Positions 9,923 through 34,078 of a stretch of DNA of 51,746 nt are shown here, piece after piece. The notes under the pieces are model-generated. The model did no database searches. It was given only the letters and a program-made list of their open reading frames with translations, and was not told the DNA's origin. Each line of letters starts with the position of its first letter. The first letter of the stretch is position 1. Origin of the DNA: Gemmatimonadota bacterium (lineage in GTDB: Bacteria; Latescibacterota; UBA2968; UBA8231); contig PBOD01000133.1 in NCBI GenBank assembly GCA_002724215.1, positions 22,519 through 74,264 on the forward strand, written 5' to 3'. The translations under genes were made by a program, and so were the position numbers.

Positions 9923-9995
9923 TTTGCTTTAGCCGGCTTCGATTGCCAGGGCTATGGCTCGCCTGTATTATTTAAGCGCTGATAAGGAATCCCCC

Positions 9996-10769
9996 ATGCA
10001 ATTGACCCGGCAGCAAAAACTTCAATTCCACCGCGATGGCTATCTCAAAATCCCCGGCGCGGTGCCCCTGATCATGATCGACCGGGCCCTGCGCGCGATC
10101 AACCACTCGCTCGGCGAGCAGGGCATGAACAAGGACGATCTGCCCACCCTGCGCGCCCAATCCTATTGCAGCGAAGTCCAGCAAGACCCAGCGCTTACCG
10201 ACCTCTTCAATCGCTCGCCGGTCTTCCCCCTGGCCGAGTCGCTGCTCGGTGCGGGCAAGGTCCAGTCCACCGGCTCCGGTCAAATCGCCCTGCGCTTTCC
10301 CTCCGCTCTCGACGCTGAGCCACCCGCTCCGCGCGGCCATCTCGACGGCCTCGGCTCCGGCCTCAACGGCCAAGCCAAGGGCCAATACCGCCGCAGCTTC
10401 ACCGGCCTGGCGGTGGTCCTGCTCTCACCATTGACCGGCGACTACGGCGGCAATTTCACCGTCTGGCCCGGCTCGCACGCCTTCTTCGAAGAATATTTCA
10501 AGGAAAATGGCCACGAAATCCTAGCTCAGGGCATGCCCCAGGTCGACCTGCCGCACGGCCCGGTGCAAGTCACCGGCGAGCCCGGCGATGCCATCCTCGC
10601 CCACCACCTGCTCGTCCACACCGCCGCCCCCAACGCCTCGTCCCACATCCGCTACGCGGCGATTTTCCGCCTGCGCCACAAGGACTGCGAAGATATCGGC
10701 CCCGCAGCCTATACCGACATGTGGCGCGAATGGCCCGGTATCCGGGAGGCCCTGGCCGAAACCACATGA
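9996..10769 (+). CDS. Phytanoyl-CoA dioxygenase (PhyH) family Fe(II)/2-oxoglutarate oxygenase
   Basis: A 257-residue double-stranded beta-helix oxygenase. The iron triad is visible as HLD (His115, Asp117) and the distal His208 in LLVHTAAPN, with Arg219 placed to bind 2-oxoglutarate. The VWPGSH block (about 157-161) is typical of the family. The ATG at 9996 has AAGGAA upstream. The substrate is unknown. It starts a PhyH-PhyH-HpcH row on the same strand. Confidence 0.82.
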   Translation: MQLTRQQKLQFHRDGYLKIPGAVPLIMIDRALRAINHSLGEQGMNKDDLPTLRAQSYCSEVQQDPALTDLFNRSPVFPLAESLLGAGKVQSTGSGQIALRFPSALDAEPPAPRGHLDGLGSGLNGQAKGQYRRSFTGLAVVLLSPLTGDYGGNFTVWPGSHAFFEEYFKENGHEILAQGMPQVDLPHGPVQVTGEPGDAILAHHLLVHTAAPNASSHIRYAAIFRLRHKDCEDIGPAAYTDMWREWPGIREALAETT

Positions 10770-10864: not shown

Positions 10865-11713
10865 ATGGAACGCATCCTCTCCGCATCCGCCGCCCGCGCC
10901 AAGCGCGACGAACTCGTCGAACTCGGCTATACCATCATCCCCGGTCTGTTGCAAAACCCGCTGCTCGGCGAGCTCCGCGCCTGGTCGGCCGACATTTTCG
11001 ACCGGATGCCCGTAGATCCCAAATTCCGCTACCAGGGCAGCGACATCCACGTCTGGACCCCGCGGCGCTGGGCGCAGACCGATCATGGACAAAATGAACG
11101 CTCCTTTCCCGCCCCCATCGTCACAAGGCTCATCGACCACCCACCGCAGGTGCAAGTCTGCGCCGAACTCGGCCTCGAAAACATGTGTGCCGACGACGTC
11201 GCCATCCTGCTGTCCAAACCCGCCTACGGCCCGCCGCTCTACTGGCACCAGGACTTCACTAACTGGAACCACCCCGAGGCCGCCACGCCCTGGCCAACGC
11301 GGATCTTCCTGTCCTATTACATGACCGACACCCACCGCGAAAACGGCTGCCTGCGCGTCATCCCCGGCACCCACCGCAAACGCATCGACCTCCACGACAT
11401 CCTGCCCGAGGCCCACAGCCCCGAGATCCAAGCCATCGACGACCTCGGCCATGCGGTCTTTATGGACCGCGACGACGCCATCGACGTCCCACTCAAAGCC
11501 GGCGACCTGATCATCGCCGACGCGCGGCTGATGCACGGAGCCTGGCCCAACCAGACCGACCAGCGCCGCACCCTGGTCCTGGCCTGGCACCGGGTCTTCG
11601 ACTTTCCCGCACCGCCGAGCTGGTGGCGGGGGCCGGTCCCCGACGCGGTAAAGAACTGCCCGCCGGACCTGGAAGTCGCCCACACCCGCACACCCAGCGC
11701 CTTTATCGCCTAG
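10865..11713 (+). CDS. Phytanoyl-CoA dioxygenase (PhyH) family oxygenase
   Basis: A 282-residue Fe(II)/2-oxoglutarate oxygenase. The metal triad is His128-Gln-Asp130 in YWHQDFTNW plus distal His224 in LMHGAWPN, with Arg234/Arg235 behind it. VIPGTHRKR at about 165-173 is the usual family block. A GGAGA ribosome site lies 8 bases before the ATG. It is only distantly similar to the PhyH protein encoded just upstream, so this is not a recent tandem duplication. The HpcH gene begins 8 bases later, suggesting co-transcription. Confidence 0.85.
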   Translation: MERILSASAARAKRDELVELGYTIIPGLLQNPLLGELRAWSADIFDRMPVDPKFRYQGSDIHVWTPRRWAQTDHGQNERSFPAPIVTRLIDHPPQVQVCAELGLENMCADDVAILLSKPAYGPPLYWHQDFTNWNHPEAATPWPTRIFLSYYMTDTHRENGCLRVIPGTHRKRIDLHDILPEAHSPEIQAIDDLGHAVFMDRDDAIDVPLKAGDLIIADARLMHGAWPNQTDQRRTLVLAWHRVFDFPAPPSWWRGPVPDAVKNCPPDLEVAHTRTPSAFIA

Positions 11714-16731: not shown

Positions 16732-17493
16732 ATGCCCGCGATCAAACAATCCGTTTGCTTCAATCCCTTCAACCAGGACGACGTCACGCCCGCGGAGCTT
16801 ATAGCCGCTGCCGCCCGCATCGGCTATAAGTCGGTCGAGATGGCCGCCGAGGAGCACTGGCCACTGATCAAAGACAGCGGTCTCGATATCGCCATCGTGG
16901 TTGGCCACGACTCGCTGCCCGACGGCCTCAACAAGCGCGAAAACCACGACCGCATCGAGGACGAGCTGCTCGCCAATATCGACCTCGCCGTCGCCAATGA
17001 TATCCCCGCGTTAATCTGCTTTTCGGGCAACCGCGAGGGCAAGTCGGAAGAAGAAGGCCTGGCCAATTGCGTCGAGGGCCTGCGCCGGGTCACCGCCGCG
17101 GCCGAGGAAAGAGGCATCACTCTGTGCATGGAACTGCTCAACTCGCGCGTCAACCACCCCGACTATCAGTGCGACCGCACCGCCTGGGGCGCAGCCATGT
17201 GTAGAGCCGTTGGCTCGCCTCGGGTAAAACTCCTCCACGATATCTACCACATGCAGATCATGGAAGGCGATCTGATCCGCAATATCACGGATTACATCGA
17301 CTGCATCGGCCACTTCCACACCGCCGGTAACCCCGGTCGCCAGGACCTCGACGACGAGCAGGAGATCTACTACCCGCCGATAATGAAAGCCATCGCTGCC
17401 AGCGACTACCAGGGCTACGTCGGCCACGAATATCGGCCCAAGGCCGGGACCATCGCTTCGCTCGAGCACGCCTTCGGGATCTGCGATGTCTGA
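16732..17493 (+). CDS. Hydroxypyruvate isomerase-like TIM-barrel (Hyi/AP endonuclease 2 family) protein
   Basis: A 253-residue xylose-isomerase-like TIM barrel. Metal ligands expected for the family are visible: Glu in LCMELLNS, the HD-x-YHM segment in LLHDIYHMQIMEGD, and the His pair in GHFHTAGNPGR. The final Glu lies in YVGHEYRP. GAGGAG precedes the ATG, 9 bases after the MlrC stop. The gene overlaps the next by 8 bases, so the three are translationally linked. The exact sugar or ketoacid substrate is unknown. Confidence 0.83.
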   Translation: MPAIKQSVCFNPFNQDDVTPAELIAAAARIGYKSVEMAAEEHWPLIKDSGLDIAIVVGHDSLPDGLNKRENHDRIEDELLANIDLAVANDIPALICFSGNREGKSEEEGLANCVEGLRRVTAAAEERGITLCMELLNSRVNHPDYQCDRTAWGAAMCRAVGSPRVKLLHDIYHMQIMEGDLIRNITDYIDCIGHFHTAGNPGRQDLDDEQEIYYPPIMKAIAASDYQGYVGHEYRPKAGTIASLEHAFGICDV

Positions 17494-18316
17494 AACCGCT
17501 ACGGGAGGCGGAGTACTCGCAGTACAGCCTACCGGCGGTGCACTCGGTGCCGAGATTCGGGGCCTGGATCTCTCCGCGCCATTATCGCTAAACCAAGCCG
17601 CCCAGGTGCGACAGGCCATGCTCGACCACGGCGTGGTCTTCTTCCGCAACCAGGACCTCAGCGACGAAGAGCTGGTGCGCTTCACCGCCTGCTTCGGCAA
17701 GCCCGTGCCCCACGTGCGCAAGCAACGCCCGCGCCGGGTCAAAGAGGTCTTCCTGATCTCCAATATCGTCGAAGACGGCGAGCCCATTGGCGAGCTCGGC
17801 GACGAGTTGATCCCCTTCCACTCGGACCTCTCCTACCTCGAGCGCCCCGGCACCCTCTCGGTGCTCTACGCGGTCGAATTGCCCACCAGCGGAGGCCAAA
17901 CACAGTGGTGCAACTGCACTGCCGCCTACGCGGCCCTCGACGACGCGATGAAGGAAAAACTCAAAGGCATGCGCGCGGTACACCGCCACCATGTCGAAGC
18001 GCAAAATCCCGCCGCGCACATCGCCCACCCCATCGTCCGCACCCATCCCGAGACCGGCCGCCGCTCGCTCTACATCGGCCCGCACCTGACCCGCTACGTC
18101 GCCGGCATCGACCAAAACGAGGGCGACGCGCTGCTCGCCGAACTCTACGCCCATATCGAGCAACCCCAATTCATCTGGACCCACGAGTGGCGGATCGGCG
18201 ACGTGGTCCTCTTCGACAACCGCCCAACCATGCACCGCCGCCTGGCTTTCCCGCCCGACCAGCGCCGACTGATGAAGCGCACCCAGATCTTCAACGACGA
18301 AATACCGGTGGAATAA
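17486..18316 (+). CDS. TauD/TfdA family Fe(II)/2-oxoglutarate dioxygenase
   Basis: A 276-residue oxygenase of the taurine/2,4-D dioxygenase family. The iron triad is His112-Ser-Asp114 (FHSDLSY) with distal His250 (NRPTMHRR); Arg260-Arg265 supply the 2-oxoglutarate anchor. An N-terminal GALGAEIRGLDLS segment is typical of TauD. The start overlaps the Hyi-like gene by 8 bases. Members hydroxylate small acids, sulfonates or ethers to trigger breakdown; the substrate here is unknown. Confidence 0.87.
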   Translation: MSETATGGGVLAVQPTGGALGAEIRGLDLSAPLSLNQAAQVRQAMLDHGVVFFRNQDLSDEELVRFTACFGKPVPHVRKQRPRRVKEVFLISNIVEDGEPIGELGDELIPFHSDLSYLERPGTLSVLYAVELPTSGGQTQWCNCTAAYAALDDAMKEKLKGMRAVHRHHVEAQNPAAHIAHPIVRTHPETGRRSLYIGPHLTRYVAGIDQNEGDALLAELYAHIEQPQFIWTHEWRIGDVVLFDNRPTMHRRLAFPPDQRRLMKRTQIFNDEIPVE

Positions 18317-20610: not shown

Positions 20611-21408
20611 TTATACCTCGCCCAGCGCGGTGCGCCCCGTGCGCCGCGGCGACTGGTAAATCGCCTCCTCCTCCGGTGTCGGATCGGCGATCGGGCACTT
20701 TTCGTGCGGGCTGCCCCACGACATAAACCCCGGCGAGTACTTAAACAAAATCGAGCGCCGCAGCCGATCGGCGGGCTGCCACGGCAGGGTGCCGTGCACC
20801 AGCGCCTCGTTGAAGATCACCACCGAACCCGCCGGCGCCACCACCTGTTCGACACAGCCCCAATCCGCATCGAGCATCAGCACGTCCAGCGCTGGCCGGT
20901 AATTGCTCTTATGGCTGCCGGGAATACAGGCGAAGCCCCCATCGCCCGGCTCTACATCGGTCAACTGCCAGGCCGCCACACACAACCCACAGTGCATCTT
21001 GCCGTGATCGAAGCCGTGGTACTGGCTCAGGTCGAAGGTCATGCCGCCGTGCAGACGGTGACCCTCGGTCTCGTCGTCCATCTGGATCAACCCCGGACCG
21101 TGATCGAGACGGAAGCCAGTTCCCAGGATCTCGTTGAATATCCCGACGATCCTCTCGTGCACCAGCATCCGCCGGAATGGCTCGCACCACGGCCGCTCAA
21201 AGGTCAGTGGGTTCTGGCTAAATTCGCCGCGCCCGGTCGCCGCGATCAGATTATCTGCCCCCTGCGACAACCCCGGCTTGCGTTTCTGCACCAGGTCTAG
21301 GTGATGCTCGACCGCCGCGTTGGCGGCGGCGACCTCCTCCGGGGTCAAGACATCCTCGATCACCACATAGCCCCATAGGTCGAAGAGAAATAGCTCTTTG
21401 GGCGTCAT
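20611..21408 (-). CDS. PhyH family dioxygenase with an HxG in place of HxD/E iron motif
   Basis: A 265-residue phytanoyl-CoA dioxygenase-like protein. The first metal motif reads His120-Gly-Gly122 (RLHGGMTFD), so the carboxylate ligand of the normal HxD/E triad is missing. The distal His205 (ALVHGTLPW) and Arg215-218 are present, as are the CIPGSHKSN and TDVEPGDGGFA blocks. HxG/HxA is the signature of Fe(II)/2OG halogenases, but related PhyH-family sequences with LHGG also appear in oxygenase-annotated groups, so hydroxylase or ligand-exchange roles remain possible. It is the last gene of a four-gene minus-strand operon, starting one base after the preceding stop. Confidence 0.8.
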   Translation of the reverse strand: MTPKELFLFDLWGYVVIEDVLTPEEVAAANAAVEHHLDLVQKRKPGLSQGADNLIAATGRGEFSQNPLTFERPWCEPFRRMLVHERIVGIFNEILGTGFRLDHGPGLIQMDDETEGHRLHGGMTFDLSQYHGFDHGKMHCGLCVAAWQLTDVEPGDGGFACIPGSHKSNYRPALDVLMLDADWGCVEQVVAPAGSVVIFNEALVHGTLPWQPADRLRRSILFKYSPGFMSWGSPHEKCPIADPTPEEEAIYQSPRRTGRTALGEV

Positions 21409-21409
21409 T

Positions 21410-21664
21410 TTACCGGCCTCCGCGCTCGATTAACTGCTCCAATGGCGCCGTCTTAGCCCCATCGACAAAGGACTCGTCGGCCTCGCCCGGCGCCCGCTCC
21501 GCGTTGCGCACCGTCGCTGCCGGATCGCGGCGCAAAATATCGACGACCTCTTCCACCGGAGGCATCTCCATATCGAAGAAGATGCATTCGGGCGCCACGA
21601 GAAAATTCTGTTTCTGGCCCCTGTGCTCGACAAACTCCGCGGCATCCCGAGCGACGCGACGCAT
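21410..21664 (-). CDS. Small hypothetical protein (84 aa)
   Basis: Unrecognised. It is 84 residues, with a basic N-terminus (MRRVARDAAEFVEHR), a central FLVAPECIFFDMEMPP segment and an acidic helical tail. There is no signal peptide and no metal motif. It is credible as a gene because GGGAGG sits 7 bases before its ATG, it starts one base after the upstream stop, and the next gene starts one base after its stop. Its position between an MDR dehydrogenase and an HxG PhyH protein suggests an accessory subunit or a reduced relic of one, which is inference. Confidence 0.6.
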   Translation of the reverse strand: MRRVARDAAEFVEHRGQKQNFLVAPECIFFDMEMPPVEEVVDILRRDPAATVRNAERAPGEADESFVDGAKTAPLEQLIERGGR

Positions 21665-21665
21665 A

Positions 21666-22643
21666 TCAGGCCTCCCAATCTAGCAGCACGCCCAGCGCCT
21701 CGCCCATATTGTTGTAGAGCAAGTCGAAAGCCCGTGCCGCCTCGGTAAAGGGCATGCGATGCGTGGTCATCCGCTCCGTCTGGATCGCGCCGTTCCGCAA
21801 TAGCTGCATCGCCCGATACGCCGTGCCCGAACCGATGCCCTCGCCATAGTAGCCGCCGAGAATCTTGCGTCGCTGGATCTTGCCCGACGAAAGCGGCAGC
21901 GGCGCGTCCTCGTAGAGCCCGATCAGATGCAACAAGCCGCCCGGCGCCAGCATGTCCAGGCCCTGGTCAAAAACCGCAAGCCCTGCTGGCCCGCCCACCG
22001 CGTAGACCACAATATCGGCACCGGCACCTCTGGTCAGCCTGCGCAGTGCAGCGACCGGATCTTCAGCAGCCGCGTTGACCACCGCATCGGCCCCAAACTC
22101 CTCCGCCAGCGCGCAGCGGCTCTCGAGCGCATCGACTGCGATGAGCCGCCCCTGGCCATTGTGCCTGGCCACCTGCAACATCAGACTCCCAACCAGCCCC
22201 TGCCCCAGAATCACCACCGTGTCGTTGTTGCCGATCTCCTCGATATCCACCCAAGTCACCGCGCCCGCAACCAGCGGCCAGTACGGCGCCTGGTCGAAGT
22301 CCACCCCATCGAGAATCGGAAAGACCTGCGGCTGCTCTGCAGTCGATGACAGCACCGCCGGTCGCACCGCGTATTCGGCATGCGGCGCCAGCGCCACTAC
22401 CGGGTCGCCGATATCATAGCAATCGACCCCTGCCCCCAGCACATCGACTGTCCCCGCCAGCGAATAGCCCATAATCTCAGGGCTGACCGCGTGTGTCCGC
22501 GTATAGCGCGCCCCGATTTCCGAGCCGCGACTGATCAGACTGCGCACCGCTTTGATCCGCACCTCGCCCGGCCCCGGCTCGGGCACTGGCACGTCTTCCA
22601 ACTGTATATTGAATTGCCCAGCGGGCTTGATTACGCGTTGCAT
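21666..22643 (-). CDS. Zinc-type MDR alcohol dehydrogenase-like protein lacking the catalytic zinc Cys
   Basis: A 325-residue medium-chain dehydrogenase/reductase. The Rossmann loop GQGLVG is at 147-152, and Asp171 at the end of the second strand suggests NAD over NADP. Where zinc enzymes have Cys, this one has SRGSE (38-42), as in the zinc-independent bi-domain oxidoreductase subgroup. It starts 3 bases after the DUF362 stop. It is shorter than typical 340-350-residue alcohol dehydrogenases because the structural zinc lobe is absent. Confidence 0.8.
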   Translation of the reverse strand: MQRVIKPAGQFNIQLEDVPVPEPGPGEVRIKAVRSLISRGSEIGARYTRTHAVSPEIMGYSLAGTVDVLGAGVDCYDIGDPVVALAPHAEYAVRPAVLSSTAEQPQVFPILDGVDFDQAPYWPLVAGAVTWVDIEEIGNNDTVVILGQGLVGSLMLQVARHNGQGRLIAVDALESRCALAEEFGADAVVNAAAEDPVAALRRLTRGAGADIVVYAVGGPAGLAVFDQGLDMLAPGGLLHLIGLYEDAPLPLSSGKIQRRKILGGYYGEGIGSGTAYRAMQLLRNGAIQTERMTTHRMPFTEAARAFDLLYNNMGEALGVLLDWEA

Positions 22644-22646
22644 GGT

Positions 22647-23858
22647 TTAAACCGCCAATATTTTCTCGTAAACGCTCATCTGCTCTCCCTCGCGCTCCTC
22701 CGGATCGGCCAGCTTGAGCCACACCGCCTGATCCTTCTTGCCGGCGGCCACGTTTTGCACCGCACCCGCCTCCTGCGGCTTGAGCCCACTCCAGATCACC
22801 TCGCCATCCTGCAAGAAGACGTAGTTGCCAGCGTGCGCGTCGAGAATGCGCTCGCGATTATCGCGATAAAAAAGCGCCTGCTCGCTCGCCGTCTGGCGCA
22901 GAGTCGCAATCTGCTCTGCCGGATCGACCTCCGCCGAGTCGAACTCCGCCACCGGTGGCTCGAGCCCCTCCATCGCAAAATCGATCTCGTCCAGGTCCAC
23001 CGTCCCAAAGCCGTGCTCGACCGCCACCGCCACCGGACTGCGGTCGCGGCGAAAAGGCGGCGTCGGCCAGTCGAGCCGGGGATCGGTGCCCATCAAATGC
23101 GAACCGCAGGCGTCGGTGGCTATGACGTGATCGCCCGCGATGAGGCAATCGCCGATCCGGCCCTCGCCGCCCCACTCCATCCGCGCCTGGCCGGTCAGCC
23201 CGTCGATAATATTGAGGCAGGGCTTGGCGATCAGCCCGAGGTCGGGCAATACGTAGGACAGGCGGATCACGTGGTGAAAGTAAGTGCGCAGGCGGCCGTG
23301 CGGCGGGATCGGCGGCAGCCCAAAGAGATTCTTTAGGCACAGCGTGATGCCCATAAAGCCGTGGTTTTTCATCTTGGCCAGTGACACGAAGGCGTCGGCC
23401 TCTCCCAGCGCGGCCGAAAGCTGATACTGCGAAAACATGATGCCGCCGCCGGGCACTTCATACCGCGCGAAAGGCGGATCGCCAGCCTCGACATACGCGA
23501 CGCCGAATTCCTCCAATAGCGGGCCGGTGTTAAAATCGTCGCCGGGCCGCGCGCCAGGTGGGGCGCTGCTGGTGTCGAGCGCGAAGATCTCGGCGTCGCT
23601 GCGCTCGCGCAGTAGTCTCAGCACCGCCCACATGACATCGTCGTCGACCAATTCCTGACGCCGACCGCCGATGCGGCGAATATTATCGCTGCGCATCTGC
23701 ATGTTGATCTTGATGCCAATGCGCCTGGCTTGCTCGATCTTTTGCCACGAGCGATCCAGGGGCGCGGTAATTTCTACGAGTTTGCGGTAGATCTCGTCGC
23801 GCGGAGCTTTGTGGCTACAGTGGGTGGCGCGAACGGTGTAGTCTTTTGCGGCGGACAT
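22647..23858 (-). CDS. DUF362 domain-containing protein
   Basis: A 403-residue DUF362 protein: FVSLAKMKNHGFMGITLCLKNLFG and the IIDGLTGQ-x-x-xEWGGEGR segment are the family hallmarks. No ferredoxin-type CxxCxxC cluster is present, unlike some DUF362 fusions. I use the ATG at 23858 because GAAAGGA is correctly spaced, and the ATG two codons earlier is too close. Its function is unknown. It leads the four-gene minus-strand operon with an MDR dehydrogenase and a PhyH protein. Confidence 0.78.
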   Translation of the reverse strand: MSAAKDYTVRATHCSHKAPRDEIYRKLVEITAPLDRSWQKIEQARRIGIKINMQMRSDNIRRIGGRRQELVDDDVMWAVLRLLRERSDAEIFALDTSSAPPGARPGDDFNTGPLLEEFGVAYVEAGDPPFARYEVPGGGIMFSQYQLSAALGEADAFVSLAKMKNHGFMGITLCLKNLFGLPPIPPHGRLRTYFHHVIRLSYVLPDLGLIAKPCLNIIDGLTGQARMEWGGEGRIGDCLIAGDHVIATDACGSHLMGTDPRLDWPTPPFRRDRSPVAVAVEHGFGTVDLDEIDFAMEGLEPPVAEFDSAEVDPAEQIATLRQTASEQALFYRDNRERILDAHAGNYVFLQDGEVIWSGLKPQEAGAVQNVAAGKKDQAVWLKLADPEEREGEQMSVYEKILAV

Positions 23859-24192
23859 GGGCATTCCTTTCGGCACGACGGGGATATGTGGGGATAATTT
23901 GCCGAGCGGAACGGTTGTTGACAAGCTCTCCTACTGGAGCAATCCAGCGGCGCGAGAAATATCTCGACCAGTGCCTCAATCACCAGTTCCAAAGCCAGAG
24001 CTCGTCCCGTCGAGGAAATTCCCCGACCTGGATCGCGGGAGCCGATGATCCAGGTCCGGACCCGGCGTTTGCAGCCAGCGTCGTGCAGCACGCGCTCGAG
24101 CGCCACGACAAGCCCGGTTGACAAGTATCAGCCCTACCTATTAAATCTCTCTACTCGGAAGCGCACATACCCTAGCCCAAAGCAGGCCTGCA
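23859..24192. other. Divergent spacer with hairpin and promoter
   Basis: A 334-base gap between divergent operons with no supportable gene. It contains a small hairpin CGAGA/TCTCG (23953-23957 with 23962-23966). A perfect 10-bp inverted repeat GACCTGGATC/GATCCAGGTC lies at 24025-24034 and 24047-24056 and could be an operator or attenuator. TTGACA occurs twice (near 23927 and at 24118), each followed by AAG. Confidence 0.5.
24118..24146 (+). promoter_or_regulatory. Sigma70-type promoter for the 24.2-41.2 kb gene row
   Basis: A perfect TTGACA (24118-24123) and TTAAAT (24141-24146, four of six) are 17 bases apart, about 45 bases before the first start codon of the PQQ-like/LuxE-LuxC row. The perfect 10-bp inverted repeat at 24025-24056 lies about 60 bases upstream. 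Confidence 0.5.
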
Positions 24193-26370
24193 GTGATCAA
24201 GTCCCCCATGCAGATCCCGTCCGTTTTTCTCGGTCTTCTGCTCTATGTCGCCACCGCCCATGCCGCCGACTGGCCCTCCTGGCGCGGGCCAGCCCAGACA
24301 GGCGTCGCCACGGAGACCAACCTCGTCGCGGCCTGGTCGCCCACGGGCGAAAACCTCGTCTGGCGCGCCGACTTCACCGGCCGCTCCACGCCGGTGGTAC
24401 TCAATGGCCGAGTCTTTGTCATCGGCCGCCGCGGCGCGGACATTATGGAGGAGGGCGTGATCGCGGCCTTCGACGCGGAAACCGGGGCCAAAATCTGGGA
24501 ACACGCCAACCGCATTTTCCACACCACCATTCCCTTCAACCGCGTCGGCTGGGCGTCGCTGGCCGGCGATCCCGAGACCGGCTATGTCTACGCCCACGGC
24601 GTCGGCGGCAATTTCTTCTGTTTCGACCGCGACGGCAACATAATATGGTCGCGCTCGCTGACCGAGGAATACGGGCGCATCTCCGGCTACGGCGGTCGCG
24701 TCCACACCCCGGTCGTCGATGAAGACCTGGTCATCATCAGCTATCTCAGCTCCAACTGGGGCAACCACACGCCCGGCCGCCACCGCTACTTCGCCTTCGA
24801 CAAAAAGACCGGCGAGCCGGTGTGGGTATCGACCCCTGGCGGTCGTCCGCTCGACACCACCTACTCGGTCCCCGTCGTCGCCACCATCAACGGCGTGCGG
24901 TTACTCATCGGCGGCAATGCCGATGGCGCCATCCACGCGCTTAAAGTCCGCACCGGCGAGCCGGTATGGCACTTTAAGCTCAGCCGCCGCGGCATCAACT
25001 CTTCGGTCGTCGTCGCCGGCGACAAGGTCTTCGCCGCCCACGGCGAGGAAAACCTCGACAATACTGCTTTAGGCCGCGTCGTCTGCATCGACGGTACCGG
25101 CCAGGGCGACGTCACCGCCACCCACGAGGTCTGGCGCTACGACGAGGTCTTCGCCGGCTACACCAGCCCCGTCTTCCACGACGGCCGCCTCTACATGATC
25201 GACAACTCAGCCAATATCCACGCGCTCGACGCCGCTACCGGCACCGTGCACTGGATCCACAATATCGGCACCGTCGGCAAGGGCTCGCCGATTTTCGCCG
25301 CCGGCCGCCTCTACGCCCCGGAAGTCAATGGCCGCTTCTCCATCGTCGTCCCCGGTGCCGATTCGGCCGAGACCATCGACAGCGATGTTATCGCAATGCC
25401 CGACGGTCGCCCCGCCGAACTCTACGGCTCGCCGGCGGTCGCCTATGGCCGTATCTTTCTCTCGACCGAGGCCGGTATCTACTGCATCGGCGACGCGAAT
25501 GCCGCATTCAAAGCGGAGGCCAGCGCAGCGGACTATCCCCGCGACAAAGCCCCCGACGATGCCCAGGCCACCCACCTGCAAATCGTTCCCGCCGAAGTCG
25601 TCGGCCAACCCGATACCGAAGTGGTTTTCCGCGCCAATCTCTTCGACGGCAAGGGCCGGCTGATCGGCCCCGCCCAACCCGAGTGGGCCTTCGCCGGCGC
25701 CGCGGGCCACCTCGACGGCACCACGCTAACGATGACTGCGCAAGGCGGAGGCAAGGTAACCGCCAGTTTGGGCGACCTCAACGCCGCAACCCGCGTCGCC
25801 GTATTGCCAGCGGCACAATTCGAGGAAGACTTCGAGCACTTCGCCAACGATGCAGTGCCGGTGTGGGTCGCCGTCGGCAGCAAATTCAAAGTGCGCGAAG
25901 TCGACGGCAACAAGGTGCTGGTCAAGCCGCCAGCCGCCCGCGGCCTGCATCGCGCCAACACCTACCTCGGCCCACCGACGATGGCCGGATACACCATCCA
26001 GGCCGACCTGCTCGGCAACAAGAAACGCCGCGCCGTGCCCGACATGGGACTGATCTCGCACCGCTACACACTCGACATAATGGGCTACCACCAGCAACTG
26101 CAAATCCGCACCTGGGCCGCCGAGCTGCGCATGGCCAAAACCGTGCCATTCGCGTGGGAAACTGGAGTGTGGTACACCGCGAAAATGACCGTCGCCATCG
26201 AGGGCGAAAAGGCCATCGTCCGCGGCAAAATATGGCCCCGCGACGAGCCCGAACCAGCGATCTGGTCCATCGAAGCCGAAGACCCGCTGCCCAATCTTGC
26301 GGGCAGCCCGGGGCTCTACGGCTATTCTCCCGCCGAAATCTTCTACGACAATATCAAGGTCTGGCAATGA
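24193..26370 (+). CDS. Exported PQQ-like beta-propeller protein with C-terminal lectin-like domain
   Basis: A 725-residue protein. A signal peptide (hydrophobic core LGLLLYVATAHA) ends before ADWPSWRGP. Residues about 25-440 are PQQ-like propeller blades (repeated A-x-D-x-x-TG-x-x-W patterns). A short linker follows, then an Ig-like stretch, and residues about 545-725 look like a concanavalin-lectin or DUF1080-type beta-sandwich (EDFEHF at the start, FYDNIKVW at the end). GTG at 24193 and ATG at 24208 are both possible starts. PQQ binding is doubtful because no vicinal Cys pair or calcium/catalytic Asp-Glu set is evident. It is the first gene of the long row and overlaps the next by ATGA. Confidence 0.8.
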   Translation: MIKSPMQIPSVFLGLLLYVATAHAADWPSWRGPAQTGVATETNLVAAWSPTGENLVWRADFTGRSTPVVLNGRVFVIGRRGADIMEEGVIAAFDAETGAKIWEHANRIFHTTIPFNRVGWASLAGDPETGYVYAHGVGGNFFCFDRDGNIIWSRSLTEEYGRISGYGGRVHTPVVDEDLVIISYLSSNWGNHTPGRHRYFAFDKKTGEPVWVSTPGGRPLDTTYSVPVVATINGVRLLIGGNADGAIHALKVRTGEPVWHFKLSRRGINSSVVVAGDKVFAAHGEENLDNTALGRVVCIDGTGQGDVTATHEVWRYDEVFAGYTSPVFHDGRLYMIDNSANIHALDAATGTVHWIHNIGTVGKGSPIFAAGRLYAPEVNGRFSIVVPGADSAETIDSDVIAMPDGRPAELYGSPAVAYGRIFLSTEAGIYCIGDANAAFKAEASAADYPRDKAPDDAQATHLQIVPAEVVGQPDTEVVFRANLFDGKGRLIGPAQPEWAFAGAAGHLDGTTLTMTAQGGGKVTASLGDLNAATRVAVLPAAQFEEDFEHFANDAVPVWVAVGSKFKVREVDGNKVLVKPPAARGLHRANTYLGPPTMAGYTIQADLLGNKKRRAVPDMGLISHRYTLDIMGYHQQLQIRTWAAELRMAKTVPFAWETGVWYTAKMTVAIEGEKAIVRGKIWPRDEPEPAIWSIEAEDPLPNLAGSPGLYGYSPAEIFYDNIKVWQ

Positions 26371-27785
26371 AAAAGACAACGCTCATCCTCGTGCTCACCC
26401 TCGCCACCGCCGCCGCCGCGCAGACCGCGATGTGGGGCGGCTCGCCTGGGCGCAATCAGGTTTCCGATGAAAAAAATCTGCCCGCGACCTGGGACGTCGA
26501 CTCCGGCGAAAATGTGCTGTGGAGCGCCACCCTCGGCTCGCAGACCTACGGCGGCCCGCTGATCCACGGCGACAAGATCTTCGTCGGCACCAACAATCAA
26601 GCCGAGCGCGACCCCGACCACAAGGGCGACCGCGGCGTGATCATGGCTTTCAATCTCGCCGACGGCCAATTCCTGTGGCAGATCGCCCACCCCAAACTTC
26701 CGGCCGGCCGCGTCAACGACTGGCCACAACAGGGCGTTTGCTCGACCCCCTATATCGAGGGCGATCGGCTCTACTACATTTCCAACCGCGCCGAAATGGT
26801 CTGCCTCGACACCGAGGGCTTCCGCGACGGCGAAAACGACGGGCCGATCACCGACGAAACCGAGACCGACCCAAGCGACGCAGACCTGATCTGGAAATAC
26901 GATATGATCGCCGAGCTCGACGTCTTCCCGCACAATCTCGCCACCAGCTCGCCGATCGGCGTCGATGGCCGATTGTTCGCGCTGACCAGTAATGGCGTCG
27001 ACGAGGGCCACGTGCATATCCCCGCGCCCTTTGCCCCCAGCTTCGTCGCCTTCAACCTCGCCGGCGAGCTGCTCTGGGACAGCGCACTGCCCGGCGACGG
27101 GATTCTGCACGGCCAGTGGGCCAACCCCGCCTACGGGGTGGCCGGCGGGCGCGAGCAGGTGATCTTCCCCGGCGGCGATGGCTGGGTCTACGCCCTCGCC
27201 CCCGATACCGGCGAATTAATCTGGAAGTTCGACTGCAACCCCAAAGATTCCGTGTGGGAACTCGGCGGTCGCGGCACCCGCAACAACCTGGTCTCGACGC
27301 CCGTCTTCTACGATGGCAAGGTCTTTATCGCCGTCGGCCAGGACCCCGAGCACGGCGAGGGCGAGGGCCACCTCTGGGCCATCGACGCCAGCGGCGAGGG
27401 CGACATCACCTCTTCCGGCGCAGTCTGGCACTTCGGCGGCGAGGACTACAACCGCACCGTCTCCACCGTCGCCATCTCCGACGGCCTGCTCTACGCGGCC
27501 GACCTGAGCGGCTTCGTCTACTGCCTCGACGTCGCCACCGGCGAACACTACTGGACCCACGATACCTTTGCCGCGATCTGGGGCTCACCCTTCGTCGCCG
27601 ACGGCAAGGTCTATATCGGTGATGAGGACGGCGATGTCGACGTGCTCGCGGCTGGCAAAAAACTCGCCGTACTGCACGAAACCAACCTCGGCAGCGCCGT
27701 CTACACCACGCCGGTTGCCCGCGATGGCGTCATTTACATCGCCTCGCGCAACACCCTCTTCGCGATCAAAGAAGGGGCCCAATGA
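26367..27785 (+). CDS. Exported PQQ-like beta-propeller protein
   Basis: A 472-residue propeller with a clean signal peptide (MKKTTLILVLTLATAAAAQ). Blade motifs recur, such as VYALAPDTGELIWKFD and VYCLDVATGEHYWTHD. The ATG overlaps the previous stop (ATGA) with AAGG upstream, and the next gene starts inside this stop in the same way. An open frame continues upstream to 25683, but only as a shadow of the preceding gene. Role unknown. It may be a periplasmic scaffold or electron-transfer-type quinoprotein. Confidence 0.8.
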   Translation: MKKTTLILVLTLATAAAAQTAMWGGSPGRNQVSDEKNLPATWDVDSGENVLWSATLGSQTYGGPLIHGDKIFVGTNNQAERDPDHKGDRGVIMAFNLADGQFLWQIAHPKLPAGRVNDWPQQGVCSTPYIEGDRLYYISNRAEMVCLDTEGFRDGENDGPITDETETDPSDADLIWKYDMIAELDVFPHNLATSSPIGVDGRLFALTSNGVDEGHVHIPAPFAPSFVAFNLAGELLWDSALPGDGILHGQWANPAYGVAGGREQVIFPGGDGWVYALAPDTGELIWKFDCNPKDSVWELGGRGTRNNLVSTPVFYDGKVFIAVGQDPEHGEGEGHLWAIDASGEGDITSSGAVWHFGGEDYNRTVSTVAISDGLLYAADLSGFVYCLDVATGEHYWTHDTFAAIWGSPFVADGKVYIGDEDGDVDVLAAGKKLAVLHETNLGSAVYTTPVARDGVIYIASRNTLFAIKEGAQ

Positions 27786-28858
27786 GCGTCGCACAGGACA
27801 GGATTACCACCGCCCGCGACGAGCTCGACGCGCACGTCCGCGATATCGTCAGGTGGCACTTCGACCCCGCGACCGGTTGCCCCTTCTGGCTCGATTACGC
27901 GCAAAAACTCGACTTCGACCCGCGCGAAAAAATCCAATCATACGAGGATCTGACGATGCTGGGCCACTTCGAGGACGAGTGGCTGCGCGGCGGTCCGGTG
28001 CGGCAATGGGTGCCCAAAGCCTATGCCGACCACCCCGTCTACGTCTTCGAGACCGGCGGCTCGACCGGCTTGCCCAAATACCGCATCAATGTCAATGACT
28101 TCAAGATCGACTACGATCAGTACAGCCGCACGCTCTCAGACGAGGGCTTCCCCCGGGGCGCCGACTGGCTGATGCTCGGACCCTCGGGCCCGCGCCGGCT
28201 GCGCCTGGCCGTCGAACACCTGGCGCAGCAGCGCGGCGGCATCTGCTTCATGGTCGATCTCGATCCGCGCTGGGTCAACTGCCTGATTCGCGACGGCAAG
28301 ATGCGCGAGCTCGAAGCCTACAAGGGGCACGTCGTCGATCAGGCCCTCAAGATCCTCAAGGCCCACGACAACGTGCAGTGCGTCTTCACCACGCCCAAGC
28401 TCCTGGAGGCCCTATCCGAAAAAGTCTCGCTGCCCAGAATGGGCATCAAGGGCATCTTCTGCGGCGGCACCGAAATGAACGCCCAGTTCCACCGCTTTGC
28501 CCGCGAAGAGCTAGTGCCCGGCATCGACTTCGTCCCCACCTACGGCAATACCCTGATGGGACTGGCCTGCTGCAAACCCTTCGACCGGGCTGACGACTAT
28601 GCTATCATCTACTACCCGCCGCAGCCGCGCGCGGTCATCGAATTGGTCGATCCCGACGACCCGAGCCGCACAGTCGACTACGGCGAGACCGGCCGGGTCA
28701 TGCTCACCACCCTGACCCGGGAATTTTTCATGCCGCGCTTTTTGGAGCGCGACGAAGCCGAACGCGCCGCACCGATCGCGCAATATCCCTGGGACGGGGT
28801 CGAGAACTTGCGGCTGCTCACCCAGATGAACGAAACCGTCGTCGTCGGCGTCTACTGA
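27782..28858 (+). CDS. LuxE/PaaK-like AMP-forming acyl-activating enzyme
   Basis: A 358-residue ANL-superfamily protein. The adenylate loop TGGSTGLPK is at residues 91-99, and PTYGNTLMG is in the position of the A5 motif. It is shorter than PaaK (about 430) and near LuxE (about 370), the acyl-protein synthetase that activates a fatty acid for the LuxC reductase. The next gene encodes a LuxC/ALDH-like reductase, supporting that pairing. GAAGGGG precedes the ATG, which overlaps the PQQ-like stop. There is no luxAB, so light production is not implied. Likely role: activate a carboxylic acid for reduction to an aldehyde. Confidence 0.7.
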   Translation: MSVAQDRITTARDELDAHVRDIVRWHFDPATGCPFWLDYAQKLDFDPREKIQSYEDLTMLGHFEDEWLRGGPVRQWVPKAYADHPVYVFETGGSTGLPKYRINVNDFKIDYDQYSRTLSDEGFPRGADWLMLGPSGPRRLRLAVEHLAQQRGGICFMVDLDPRWVNCLIRDGKMRELEAYKGHVVDQALKILKAHDNVQCVFTTPKLLEALSEKVSLPRMGIKGIFCGGTEMNAQFHRFAREELVPGIDFVPTYGNTLMGLACCKPFDRADDYAIIYYPPQPRAVIELVDPDDPSRTVDYGETGRVMLTTLTREFFMPRFLERDEAERAAPIAQYPWDGVENLRLLTQMNETVVVGVY

Positions 28859-28867
28859 GACAACCCT

Positions 28868-30295
28868 ATGACCACACGGCCGCAAACCCACCTGCCCCTG
28901 CTGCGCGCGGGCCAGCCCTACACCAGCCTCGACCAGGTCGCAGTCTCGCACATCGCCAGCGGCCAACTCCTGGCCAGCGTCAGTCAGGCCAACCGCGGCC
29001 TGATCGCCCGCGACCTCAACGCGATGGATGCCAACCGCGCAGCCCTCGACGAGGTATCCGTAGCCGAGTTGCTGACCATCTGCACTAAGGCCGCGACACT
29101 CTTCGCCACCGCCGAGCTACCTTTGGGCACGGGCGTGCAAACAGTCGAAGATTATGTCGTTCAGGTATCGGGTTCGACCGGCCTGCCACAAACGCTAGTC
29201 CGCGCCAATATGGCCAAGATCCGCCTGGTCTTCGACGAAATGGCCGCGGTGCTCGACGGCTTGACCCGCGGCCTGGACCTCGGCGTACTCGACACGGGCG
29301 AAAATATCCAGGACGGCCGCGCGCTGAGCTATGCGCCGCTGGCCCGCGCCCTCGGCTGCGTATTGCCCAGCAACTCGCCCGGCGTGCACTCGCTGTGGCT
29401 GCCCGCCATTCCGCTCAAAACCCCACTGGTGCTCAAGCCCGGCCGCGAAGAGCCGTGGACCCCGTATCGCATCGCGCAAGCGCTGATCGCGGCGGGCTGT
29501 CCGCCACAGGCACTGAGCTATTATCCGACCGACCACGGCGGCAGCACCGAGATCCTGTTGCGCTGCGGCCGCTCACTGCTCTTCGGCGGCGGAGCCACCG
29601 TCGAGCCCTGGCTGCGCGACCCCGGCGTGCAGATCCACGGCCCCGGCCGCAGCAAGATCCTGATCGGCCCAGATAAAATAGACGACTGGGAACAATATCT
29701 CGACGTGATGGTCACTTCGATCGCTGCCAACGGCGGCCGTTCCTGCATCAATGCCTCCGGCGTCTGGGTGCCAGCGCATGGCCGCGAAATCGCGCAGGCG
29801 CTGGGCGAACGCCTGGCCCAGATCCAAGCCCGCCCGCTCGAAGACCCCGACGCCGGTCTCGCCGCCTTCGCCAACCCCGAAATAGCGCACCGTCTCTCCG
29901 ACCTGATCGACGCCCAGCTCGGCGACGCCTCAGACACCGCCCGCGGTCGCGGCGCACGCGTTGCGACCGCCGATGGCTGCACCTTTTTGAATCCAACCGT
30001 AGTACACGTGCCCGGTGCCGACCACCCGCTCGCCAACGCCGAATACCTCTTCCCCTTCGCCGCCGTCGTCGAATTGCCCGCAGACCAGTTGGCCGAGCGC
30101 ATCGGCCCGACGCTGGTCGTCACCGCGCTGACCGAGGACGAGGGCTTATGCCGCCGCCTGCTCGCCTCACCCCACGTCGAGCGCCTCAACTTCGGCCCAA
30201 TCCCCACCAACCAGATTTCTTGGGACCAGCCGCACGAGGGCAATCTGTTCGACTTTCTCTACCAGCAGCGGGCGCTGCAGCGGCTGGCAGGCTGA
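28868..30295 (+). CDS. Aldehyde dehydrogenase superfamily / LuxC-like acyl reductase
   Basis: A 475-residue ALDH-fold protein. LPSNSPGVHSLWLPAIPLK (167-185) is the substrate/cofactor entry block. The catalytic Cys293 sits in NGGRSCINAS. FGPIPTNQ near the C-terminus is ALDH-like. Together with the LuxE-like partner 9 bases upstream and the iron alcohol dehydrogenase 7 bases downstream, it would carry out the middle step of acid to aldehyde to alcohol. The reverse (oxidative) direction cannot be excluded. Confidence 0.72.
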   Translation: MTTRPQTHLPLLRAGQPYTSLDQVAVSHIASGQLLASVSQANRGLIARDLNAMDANRAALDEVSVAELLTICTKAATLFATAELPLGTGVQTVEDYVVQVSGSTGLPQTLVRANMAKIRLVFDEMAAVLDGLTRGLDLGVLDTGENIQDGRALSYAPLARALGCVLPSNSPGVHSLWLPAIPLKTPLVLKPGREEPWTPYRIAQALIAAGCPPQALSYYPTDHGGSTEILLRCGRSLLFGGGATVEPWLRDPGVQIHGPGRSKILIGPDKIDDWEQYLDVMVTSIAANGGRSCINASGVWVPAHGREIAQALGERLAQIQARPLEDPDAGLAAFANPEIAHRLSDLIDAQLGDASDTARGRGARVATADGCTFLNPTVVHVPGADHPLANAEYLFPFAAVVELPADQLAERIGPTLVVTALTEDEGLCRRLLASPHVERLNFGPIPTNQISWDQPHEGNLFDFLYQQRALQRLAG

Positions 30296-30302
30296 CTCGC
30301 GC

Positions 30303-31442
<1,140 letters not shown>

Positions 31443-31578
31443 TGGCAATCACCGCAATTCTACAACGAGCCAGATCTGATCAGGGTCCGTCCCCAGAGCG
31501 GATTCGGCGTTCGATTTTGCAGGACGGCAAATTTACAGTCAGAGCGATAAAACGAAGAAGCGAGATTGCGAAGCGACG

Positions 31579-31615
31579 CGCATCGCGAAGCGATGCGTGC
31601 ATGAGCGGCTGGGGG
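31579..31615 (+). repeat. REP-like hairpin element, copy 2
   Basis: CGCATCGC (31579-31586) pairs perfectly with GCGATGCG (31590-31597) around a GAA loop. CTGGGGGTGCGCC starts at 31609. This mirrors the element at 14033-14067. The G-run also lies where the ribosome site of the next gene would be. Confidence 0.5.
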
Positions 31616-31624
31616 TGCGCCTTG

Positions 31625-32710
31625 ATGGGATCGTCCGCCGCGGCACTACTGCTGGTCGTCGCCACCCACGCCGACACCTGGCACGCCTTCCGCGGCAACC
31701 CCCAACTAACCGGCATCGCCCAAACCGACGTACCCTCAGACCTCCACCTACTGTGGACCTACGCCACCGAAGACGCCATAGAATCTACCGCCGCCATCCA
31801 CCAAAACACCGTCTACCTCCCCTCTTTGGACACCCACCTCTACGCGCTTGACCTCGATACCGGCACCCTCCAATGGCGCTATCAGGCCAGCGCCGAAATC
31901 AAGTCCTCCCCCACCATCATCGACAGCACCCTCTACTTCGGCGACGAAGCCGGCACCCTCCACGCCATCGACCTCCAAACCGGCCAACCCCGCTGGACCT
32001 TTGCCGCCGAAGGCGCCATCACCTCCAGCGCCAACTACGCCGGGGACCGCCTCTACTTCGGCTCCTACGACCAGTATCTCTACTGCCTCGACGCGGCCAC
32101 CGGTGCCGAGGCTTGGAAAATCGCCAGCGACGGATATATTCACAGTACGCCAGTCATCTACCAAGACCAGGTCGCCAGCGCCGGCTGCGACGGGCAACTG
32201 CGGCTTCTGGACCAGATAGACGGTAGCGAGCGCCGCGCCCTACCCATGGGCGCCTATGTCGCCGCCAGCGCCGCCGTCGCCGGCAACCGCGCCTATGTCG
32301 GCACCTTCGGCAACGAAGTCCTCGCCGTCGATCTCGACGCGGGGACCGTAGCCTGGCGCTACCAGCATCCAGAGCGCAAATTTCCCTTCTACGCCTCGCC
32401 GGCGGTGGGGGCGGATGTCGTCGTCATCGGCGGGCGCGACAAAATGGTCCACGCGCTCGATCCCGATACCGGCCGGGCGCTGTGGACCTTTAAAACCCGC
32501 ACCCGCGTCGATGCCTCGCCGGTCGTTGTCGGCGGGCGCGTCTTCATCGGCGCCGAAGCGCTTATCGCCCTCGACCTCGCTACCGGCGCCGAAATCTGGC
32601 GTTTCGAGACCGGGGCTGAGATCGCCGCCTCGCCCGCCGTCGCCCAAGGTCGGCTGATCATCGGCGCCACCGACGGTGCGATCTACTGCTTTGGAGCAAA
32701 GGCCCCGTAG
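31625..32710 (+). CDS. Exported PQQ-like beta-propeller protein
   Basis: About 361 residues from the ATG at 31625, which has GGGGGTG 7 bases upstream and gives a hydrophobic leader (MGSSAAALLLVVATHA). A second ATG at 31601 and an open frame back to 31442 exist, but those run through the hairpin element. Seven blades with LYALDLDTGTLQWRY-type repeats follow. This is a compact BamB-like propeller without extra domains. It is the third propeller in the row and is separated from the Fe-ADH gene by the only sizeable gap in it. Confidence 0.72.
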   Translation: MGSSAAALLLVVATHADTWHAFRGNPQLTGIAQTDVPSDLHLLWTYATEDAIESTAAIHQNTVYLPSLDTHLYALDLDTGTLQWRYQASAEIKSSPTIIDSTLYFGDEAGTLHAIDLQTGQPRWTFAAEGAITSSANYAGDRLYFGSYDQYLYCLDAATGAEAWKIASDGYIHSTPVIYQDQVASAGCDGQLRLLDQIDGSERRALPMGAYVAASAAVAGNRAYVGTFGNEVLAVDLDAGTVAWRYQHPERKFPFYASPAVGADVVVIGGRDKMVHALDPDTGRALWTFKTRTRVDASPVVVGGRVFIGAEALIALDLATGAEIWRFETGAEIAASPAVAQGRLIIGATDGAIYCFGAKAP

Positions 32711-32717
32711 GATAAAT

Positions 32718-34067
32718 ATGACCGAACCGACCAACCCGCCGGGCAACGACCCGGCGACCACCCGCGCCGATCGCGGCGAAACCAGCGTCGGCAGCGTCTT
32801 CGTCTCCAACTATCCGGCCTATTCGTTTTGGGGCGAGGAGGATCTGCCCGCAGCGCGCCAAGTCCTCGCCCGGGCCCCGCGCCCCGGCGCCCGGCTCGGC
32901 CTCTACCTCCACATTCCCTTCTGCCGCAAGCGCTGCAAGTTCTGCTATTTCCGCGTCTATACCGACAAGAACGCCGACCAGATCGAGACCTATCTCGACG
33001 CCCTGGCGCGCGAAGTCGAGCACTATGCGCATTTGCCCGCCATCGCGGACCGACCGCTGCACTTTGTCTACTTCGGCGGCGGCACGCCCTCCTATATCAG
33101 CACCCGCCACCTCCGCGCGCTGGTAGACCGACTCAAGACCGCCTTGCCTTGGGACAACGCCGCCGAGATCGCCTTCGAATGCGAGCCGGGCACCCTGACC
33201 AAACCCAAACTGGAAGCGATCCGCGCAATCGGCGTCACCCGTCTCAGCCTGGGCGTCGAAAATCTCGACGACGATATCCTGCGCCACAACGGCCGCGCCC
33301 ACGTCAGCAGCGAAATCTACCAGGTTGTGCCCTGGATCCACGAGCTCGGTTTCGACCAGGTCAATATGGACCTGATCGCCGGCATGGTCGGCGAGACCTG
33401 GGACAGCTGGCGCCAAACCGTACAACGGACCATCGATCTCGGCCCCGATTCGATCACCGTCTACCAGATGGAACTGCCCTACAACACCGTCTACTCAAAA
33501 GACCTGCTCTCCGGCGACGGCGAGCCGATCGCTCTAGCCGACTGGAAGACCAAGCGCGCCTGGCACGCCTATGCCTTCGAGCAGTTCGCCGCCGCCGGCT
33601 ACTCGCGGTCAAGTGCCTATACGATGCAGAAGACGGCCGACGCCCGCTTCGTCTACCGCGACGCAGTCTGGACCGGCCAGGATATGATCGGCGCCGGCGT
33701 GGCCTCCTTTTCGCATATCGGCGGGGTCCACTACCAGAACGCGCCGCGCTGGGAAGACTATCTCGGCGCTCTCGACAGCGACCAGTTGCCGCTCTTCCGC
33801 GCCTTTGCCGCCACGCGCGAGGAGCAACTCACCCGCGAGGTCGTATTGCAATTAAAACTCGGCACCATCGACGCGGCCTATTTCCGGGCCAAGTATGATC
33901 TCGACATCATCGAACACTTCCAGGCGCCACTGATCGGACTGCGCGCCGAAGGCCTGCTCGCCTTCACCGCCGACGCGATCGCGCTCACCGACGAGGGCCT
34001 GCTCCGCGTCGATCAATTATTACCCGACTTTTACGACGCTAAGTACCGCAACGCACGCTACACGTAA
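32718..34067 (+). CDS. HemW/HutW-like radical SAM protein (coproporphyrinogen III oxidase family)
   Basis: A 449-residue radical SAM enzyme. YLHIPFCRKRCKFCYF at 63-78 contains the CxxxCxxC cluster (Cys69, Cys73, Cys76). The next family Cys of true HemN is Phe78, as in HemW and heme-utilisation homologues. YFGGGTPS binds SAM. The ATG at 32718 follows TAGGAT. HemW acts in heme trafficking, while HutW/ChuW opens heme under anoxia. A TonB receptor gene four genes on fits a heme or iron role, but substrate assignment from sequence is not possible. Confidence 0.78.
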   Translation: MTEPTNPPGNDPATTRADRGETSVGSVFVSNYPAYSFWGEEDLPAARQVLARAPRPGARLGLYLHIPFCRKRCKFCYFRVYTDKNADQIETYLDALAREVEHYAHLPAIADRPLHFVYFGGGTPSYISTRHLRALVDRLKTALPWDNAAEIAFECEPGTLTKPKLEAIRAIGVTRLSLGVENLDDDILRHNGRAHVSSEIYQVVPWIHELGFDQVNMDLIAGMVGETWDSWRQTVQRTIDLGPDSITVYQMELPYNTVYSKDLLSGDGEPIALADWKTKRAWHAYAFEQFAAAGYSRSSAYTMQKTADARFVYRDAVWTGQDMIGAGVASFSHIGGVHYQNAPRWEDYLGALDSDQLPLFRAFAATREEQLTREVVLQLKLGTIDAAYFRAKYDLDIIEHFQAPLIGLRAEGLLAFTADAIALTDEGLLRVDQLLPDFYDAKYRNARYT

Positions 34068-34078
34068 TAGAAGCTCCT

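Follow-up and report, generated by a model that had tools for sequence, protein, structure and literature searches.

Does a PhyH-type protein that carries glycine where its iron is usually bound by a carboxylate halogenate its substrate, or does it insert oxygen? The question is raised by one gene in the window, i.e., the whole stretch of 51,746 nucleotides that was analysed here. In halogenases dependent on iron and 2-oxoglutarate (2OG), chloride takes the place of the carboxylate (PMC4019311, PMC12346261), and HxG has been described as a halogenase motif (PMC12346261). The human hydroxylase AspH also has HxG (PMC12816917, PMC10947486), and the accessible text on this enzyme reports that halogenation was not seen (PMC13168262). 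The preliminary description of this DNA, which gave no strand, had placed a PhyH-type reading frame at 20611-21408 and pointed to halogenases. For the encoded protein, P0001, we consider oxygen insertion most likely, instead of chlorination. Judging from sequence comparison, P0001 is probably a HygX-like PhyH oxygenase in which the function of the carboxylate is exerted from Glu201, acting as a ligand or as the holder of a water molecule.

The reading frame exists and lies on the minus strand; it begins with ATG and passes the PhyH (PF05721) threshold with 53 bits against a cut-off of 22 in a Pfam scan. Conservation was assessed in A1, i.e., P0001 and eight orthologues (nine sequences), in A2, consisting of P0001 and relatives, and in A3 (66 sequences). 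The gene and its putative iron site comprise the following features:

20611..21408, minus strand: P0001, probable HygX-like PhyH-fold Fe(II)/2OG oxygenase of 265 aa (open reading frame; Pfam PhyH; model pLDDT 92.6; HygX Z 24.0).
21043..21051, minus strand: H120-G121-G122, proximal iron histidine with Gly replacing the usual carboxylate at His+2 (located by counting from the start codon, 21408; H120 does not vary in A2).
20794..20808, minus strand: E201-A-L-V-H205, distal iron histidine and the acid at His-4, proposed stand-in for the carboxylate (conservation; HygX has it too).
20758..20760, minus strand: R217, presumed arginine binding the 2OG carboxylate (invariant in A2 and A3; role suggested by the family).

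Thus, His120-Gly-Gly122 indeed replaces HxD/E, with the distal His205 and the arginine kept, as had been described, and P0001 has H120-G-G122 and H205 instead of the classical HxD/E...H iron triad. PhyH was the sole Pfam family found at E <= 0.001, so that P0001 is no member of the AspH family, and a direct scan returned no NCBIfam family at the same threshold, the chlorinating-enzyme model TIGR01762 being among those scanned.

An AlphaFold2 model of P0001, built on A3, has a mean pLDDT of 92.6 and a pTM of 0.90, with pLDDT averaging 80 over residues 121-130. In this model, one strand (117-120) ends at H120, another (196-200) ends just before E201, and a third (205-208) starts at H205. The 16 best Foldseek matches in the PDB are all chains of HygX, and structural alignment with VIA-align gave HygX a Z of 24.0 (rmsd 2.4, 212 residues aligned), followed by SptF as the next family with a Z of 21.9. 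The best sequence match in the PDB is HygX as well (4e-13 by sequence, 1.5e-18 by profile). Around the two histidines, LHGG and NEALMHGT of HygX are aligned with LHGG and NEALVHGT of P0001, and HygX alone among the PDB relatives with alignments compared has both HxG and Glu at His-4; it is also the closest solved relative by sequence and by fold. A literature search, which lay mostly outside subscription journals, returned no description of the metal ligands of HygX. The abstract of a 2015 HygX paper reportedly speaks of 'variation in metal coordination in HygX'.

There are ten relatives of P0001 in the genome collection, nine loci being 70-83% identical to it; the metagenome-assembled genomes of these nine are labelled Poribacteria in eight cases and Gemmatimonadaceae in one. 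The latter label, which may be wrong, belongs to the nearest relative (83%, L001). From the Poribacteria labels, the host is probably a sponge symbiont. HGG, H205 and R217 are unchanged in all eight aligned relatives, and pN/pS of P0001 against those eight is 0.19-0.35, indicating that the gene is functional and under purifying selection. With the classical triad incomplete on one side, P0001 might be regarded as a non-catalytic protein of PhyH fold that has lost its metal. Given the purifying selection and the invariance of both histidines and R217 in A2 and A3, we attach next to no credence to such a loss.

The case for a true Fe(II)/2OG halogenase, in which the HxG site binds chloride and a C-H bond is chlorinated, can be made from the motif itself (PMC12346261), from weak profile matches of SyrB2 and CytC3 to P0001 (9e-4 and 5e-3, respectively), and from the marine sponge setting suggested by the labels of the relatives, which would supply halide. 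It should be noted, however, that although HGG conforms to the HxA/G of SyrB2-type enzymes, P0001 is not among the 55 matches of its own genome to the chlorinating-enzyme model TIGR01762, and none of the 55 passes the cut-off (150 of 173 candidates were scored). WelO5, BesD and AdaV have no row among the 50 fold matches listed, which excludes nothing. At His-4, SyrB2 (FWSTLMH) and CytC3 (FWSNTMH) both have Ser; the comparison covers these two halogenases and leaves out WelO5, BesD, AdaV and DAH. If absence of an acid at His-4 is taken as a mark of such enzymes, a rule of our own derived from the two, P0001 departs from it by Glu201. The nearest solved relative is HygX, and the numbers of family matches per genome (6 to at least 43 in 42 genomes, see below) would seem to fit catabolic oxygenases better. 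Overall, the proposed halogenase link was not supported, and we consider chlorination by P0001 quite improbable.

We asked which acidic positions accompany the loss of the carboxylate, and compared PhyH proteins of the window's genome (G000), found by iterated HMM search in a sample of 100 stretches over 156 listed match positions, some of them overlapping. HxD was found in 146 of the 183 aligned stretches and HxG in 19, the remainder being mixed. Among all acidic positions, position 201, i.e., distal His-4, tracks the loss of the carboxylate at His+2 most strongly: it is acidic in 23 of the 28 non-carboxylate members compared to 7 of the 140 HxD members. The second strongest is position 156 (D vs N), shortly before the PGSH segment.

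For replication, we used a genome of another family (G031) with 93 PhyH matches. In the combined set, 248 of 278 aligned stretches were kept, and those dropped lacked one or both histidines (23), were short (5) or were duplicates (2). The preliminary description had held that carboxylate-less sites mark a large PhyH subgroup, which is borne out by the 44 proteins among these 248, all with both histidines, that have no D, E or H at His+2; this class of motif is common in the two genomes and no chance oddity. An acid at His-4 was found in 36 of the 44 (22/25 in G000 and 14/19 in G031), compared to 11 of the 200 HxD proteins (7/136 and 4/64, respectively) and one of the four HxH proteins. The eight exceptions among the 44 include five from G031 and two from G000 that have an acid at -3 or -5, and one from G000 that has none. 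Another 46 HxD proteins out of the 200 lack an acid at -4 but have one at -3 or -5, and position -4 is thus the discriminating one. The family of P0001 was represented by 53 distinct sequences, P0001 included, from loci L001-L040 and L146-L175. The motif at the proximal histidine is HGG in 33 of them, HGS in 16, HGA in one and HDC in one, two being unreadable at that place, and the residue at His-4 is Glu in 51; the two L009 stretches have Asp, one at -4 and the other at -5. In the HxD relatives seen in the printed alignments, His-4 is Cys (EctD, SnoK), Gly (TlxJ, AndA), Pro (PAHX) or Leu (6ZYK). As a separate observation, PhyH proteins with HQH...GNLWH occur in both genomes (L085:578-1306, minus strand, and the L214 reading frame at 454-1476, minus strand); the two genomes are of different families, and the motif may be a 3-His iron site kept in both.

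These frequencies also bear on the proposal that Asp126, or another acid of the loop, provides the third ligand. The preliminary description had named Asp126 as an example of a nearby Asp or Glu in this role, which would count against a halogenase. Asp126 lies six residues after H120 and is invariant in the nine A1 sequences, but in A2 this position is Asn or lacks an acid in L040, L049, L108 and L009. Among the 28 non-carboxylate members of the window's genome, 11 have an acid at position 126 and 23 have one at position 201, and Asp126 falls in the segment of the model where pLDDT averages 80. Asp126 is thus a weak candidate and a loop acid a highly improbable ligand, whereas a nearby acid in the third position, the condition named against a halogenase, is probably present as Glu201.

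We inferred a tree of the 248 PhyH proteins without the motif columns, in which 41 of the 44 non-ligand members fall into one clade of 46 (support 89). Outside this clade, there is a separate pair (support 99) with HTG and HAG, i.e., L093:1222-1863 on the plus strand and the L211 reading frame at 1202-2227 on the minus strand. Both members have Asp at His-4, and the pair is nested in a group of four (support 99), of which the other two are HRD proteins without an acid at -4. The remaining non-ligand member (HQV, no acid) is located elsewhere on the tree and may be misaligned. In the main clade, five members have a ligand at +2 in this alignment: two are HxD with Glu at -4 (L042 and L213, with HGD and HAD), two are HxD without this Glu (L086 and the fragment L064), and one is HMH with Glu. 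The persistence of Glu beside HxD in L042 and L213 indicates that it may serve for something besides metal binding, and these two proteins are a natural test of its purpose. A sign test on independent pairs was not significant, neither in the first run (4 starred pairs, median p 0.5) nor on the tree of 248 proteins (median p 0.5 from 5 starred pairs, rising to 1 when acids at -5 are included). Accordingly, the association of the acid with the lost carboxylate is a strong trait conserved in one clade and seen once more outside it, rather than a correlation among statistically independent cases; the loss, together with the gain of the acid, was largely one event.

As to the geometry at the iron, we would expect, by analogy with the family, that H120 and H205 bind the iron of P0001, and that this iron and R217 bind 2OG. 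The carboxylate absent at His+2 would be made good by Glu201, where the strand preceding H205 ends, either as a direct iron ligand, i.e., in a relocated 2-His-1-Glu triad, or as the hydrogen-bonding holder of a water molecule that fills the slot. The latter role has a precedent in AspH, where two histidines bind the iron, and the water W1 in the carboxylate slot is held by Asp721, four residues before His725; the D721A variant is substantially less active (PMC13168262). Glu201 has the offset of Asp721 and one more carbon; with this extra length, it may contact the iron directly or hold a water. Since the slot would be taken in either role, chloride is disfavoured; for AspH, the authors propose that W1, being tightly bound, impedes the binding of halide (PMC13168262). 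With the site so arranged, an ordinary cycle would follow: decarboxylation of 2OG, formation of Fe(IV)=O, hydrogen abstraction, and hydroxylation or oxidative ring closure.

A simpler arrangement has to be considered, in which the enzyme works with two histidines and solvent in the third site, Glu201 not being near the metal. AspH itself functions with two histidines and water (PMC13168262), and even its single-histidine variants stay active (PMC10947486). On this account, there would be little reason for position 201 to be acidic throughout the clade and seldom so in the HxD relatives, and we regard the arrangement as unlikely. A direct part for Glu201 at the iron site is the reading that we retain. 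By analogy with HygX and the superfamily, P0001 likely acts on a small molecule, either hydroxylating a C-H bond or closing a ring oxidatively; that this molecule is sugar-like is a weak guess from HygX.

PhyH genes are numerous in the genome of P0001. At least 151 matches, P0001 among them, were counted in its 5.85 Mb (266 contigs), and this is a floor because 150 of the 297 candidates were scored. With P0001 as the query, 71 matches were found in its own genome, and 24 of the 25 genomes of its family were matched. At E <= 1e-20, a profile made from A2 matched 42 of the phylum's 60 genomes; each of these 42 had between 6 and at least 43 matches, with up to 43 candidates scored per genome. All 42 belong to the class of the window's genome; the profile had zero matches in 17 genomes outside this class and in one inside it (G018). 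That Poribacteria are rich in PhyH genes is already known (Kamke et al. 2014, PMC3909097), and the accessible text of that paper does not mention a carboxylate-less subset or variants of the iron site. Our literature search, mostly outside subscription journals, found no account of such a poribacterial subset. Within the window, two more PhyH-like proteins were found by HMM search, at 9954-10769 (plus strand, HLD) and 10865-11713 (plus strand, HQD), and there is a TauD-family protein at 17486-18316 (plus strand, Pfam).

Gene neighbourhoods were examined as potential clues to the substrate. In this genome, three features precede P0001 in the same direction, in the order DUF362, dehydrogenase, short reading frame:

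22647..23924, minus strand: DUF362 protein, upstream of and codirectional with P0001 (Pfam).
21666..22643, minus strand: zinc-type alcohol dehydrogenase, upstream of and codirectional with P0001 (Pfam).
21410..21664, minus strand: putative 84-aa reading frame between P0001 and the dehydrogenase, with a near-exact fit (no Pfam match).

Among loci L001-L040, the dehydrogenase is beside the gene only in L011, the window's own stretch, the flanks of L011-L040 being at most 1.5 kb; in L004, a 30% relative of it lies 4 kb from the gene. The DUF362 neighbour was not found in L001-L010 and L012-L040, where most flanks are short. Hence, the dehydrogenase is a possible partner of P0001 in this genome only, and we found no conserved operon containing the window's neighbours that could serve as a clue, most loci extending only a short way beyond the gene. 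Upstream neighbours that are absent from the window, including CofD-like and SIS/glutamine-amidotransferase (GlmS-like) genes, are common to L002, L004, L006 and L010, all four from Poribacteria. The scanned neighbours of P0001 do not suggest an antibiotic cluster. On a larger scale, 96 reading frames near clade paralogues (20 regions) include seven GFO_IDH_MocA, five MR_MLE_C, five xylose-isomerase-like TIM barrel and three UxuA proteins, compared to five GFO_IDH_MocA, two MR_MLE_C and at most one each of the TIM barrel and UxuA (outside the best 25 families) among 79 control reading frames near other PhyH paralogues. The two sets were cut differently. The clade set retains 96 of 110 reading frames of at least 150 aa, after removal by hand of two that were duplicates and of twelve that were for the most part short or overlapping, with one 99%-identical pair left in it; the control set includes all 79 of 79, of at least 200 aa. 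The difference is too small to make a sugar or sugar-acid neighbourhood a clue to the substrate.

The preliminary description had also counted a second halogenation enzyme in the window. The corresponding genes are:

39955-41190, plus strand: FAD-dependent halogenase-like protein (best PDB match 8ZOP, 4e-62; WFWYIP).
38417-39958: PaaK-like CoA ligase, adjoining the flavoenzyme.
36573-38687: TonB siderophore receptor, near the flavoenzyme.

The best PDB matches of the flavoenzyme are flavin halogenases, and its WFWYIP fits WxWxIP, the flavin-halogenase motif; it scores below the cut-off of every one of the best 25 of 50 NCBIfam families. A halogenase-like flavoenzyme is therefore present at 39955, but it is 18.5 kb away with many genes between and shows no link to P0001. 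A run of quinoprotein-like beta-propeller genes occupies 24193-35323 (plus strand) of the window, together with genes for AMP-binding, aldehyde-dehydrogenase-like and HemN-like radical SAM proteins.

In searches for 2OG halogenases, HxG is used as a flag, and the acid at distal His-4 can serve as an inexpensive filter; in one genome, the 25 PhyH proteins examined that have no D, E or H at His+2 are most likely non-halogenases. We tentatively suggest, while allowing that it may well prove otherwise, that the HygX site, instead of being peculiar to a single antibiotic enzyme, is the signature of an old and very large clade of oxygenases. In this clade, the carboxylate would have moved from His+2 to His-4, giving a 2-His-1-Glu site built from other strands, and the clade would have radiated in Poribacteria-like symbionts, reaching up to 43 or more matches in a genome, with the swap arising twice (the second time as HTG/HAG with Asp). 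If this is true, the acid at distal His-4 would be a simple rule by which true HxG halogenases can be told from false ones by sequence. Should the acid be a genuine ligand, the clade would offer a rich natural set for studying the effect of a relocated carboxylate on the chemistry of Fe(IV)=O, and HygX would provide a structural model for some of the PhyH expansion in Poribacteria, which is unexplained.

Compared with known systems, P0001 resembles SyrB2 and CytC3 (TIGR01762) in its PhyH-like sequence, two histidines and HxA/G, and differs from them by Glu instead of Ser at distal His-4 and by having no NCBIfam match. With AspH, it shares HxG and an acid at distal His-4 (D721/H725 in AspH), whereas AspH belongs to another family, acts on a protein substrate and has Asp instead of Glu; this likeness is convergent at best. 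HygX from Streptomyces hygroscopicus (PDB 4XC9, 4XCA, 4XCB and 4ZPI) is a Fe/2OG oxygenase of hygromycin B biosynthesis. It is only 23-27% identical to P0001, has an 11-residue insert after HGG that P0001 does not have, and works in an antibiotic pathway, whereas P0001 is in no visible cluster of this kind. Nevertheless, the two proteins have in common LHGG at the proximal histidine, Glu at distal His-4, a similar length and the GSHK segment.
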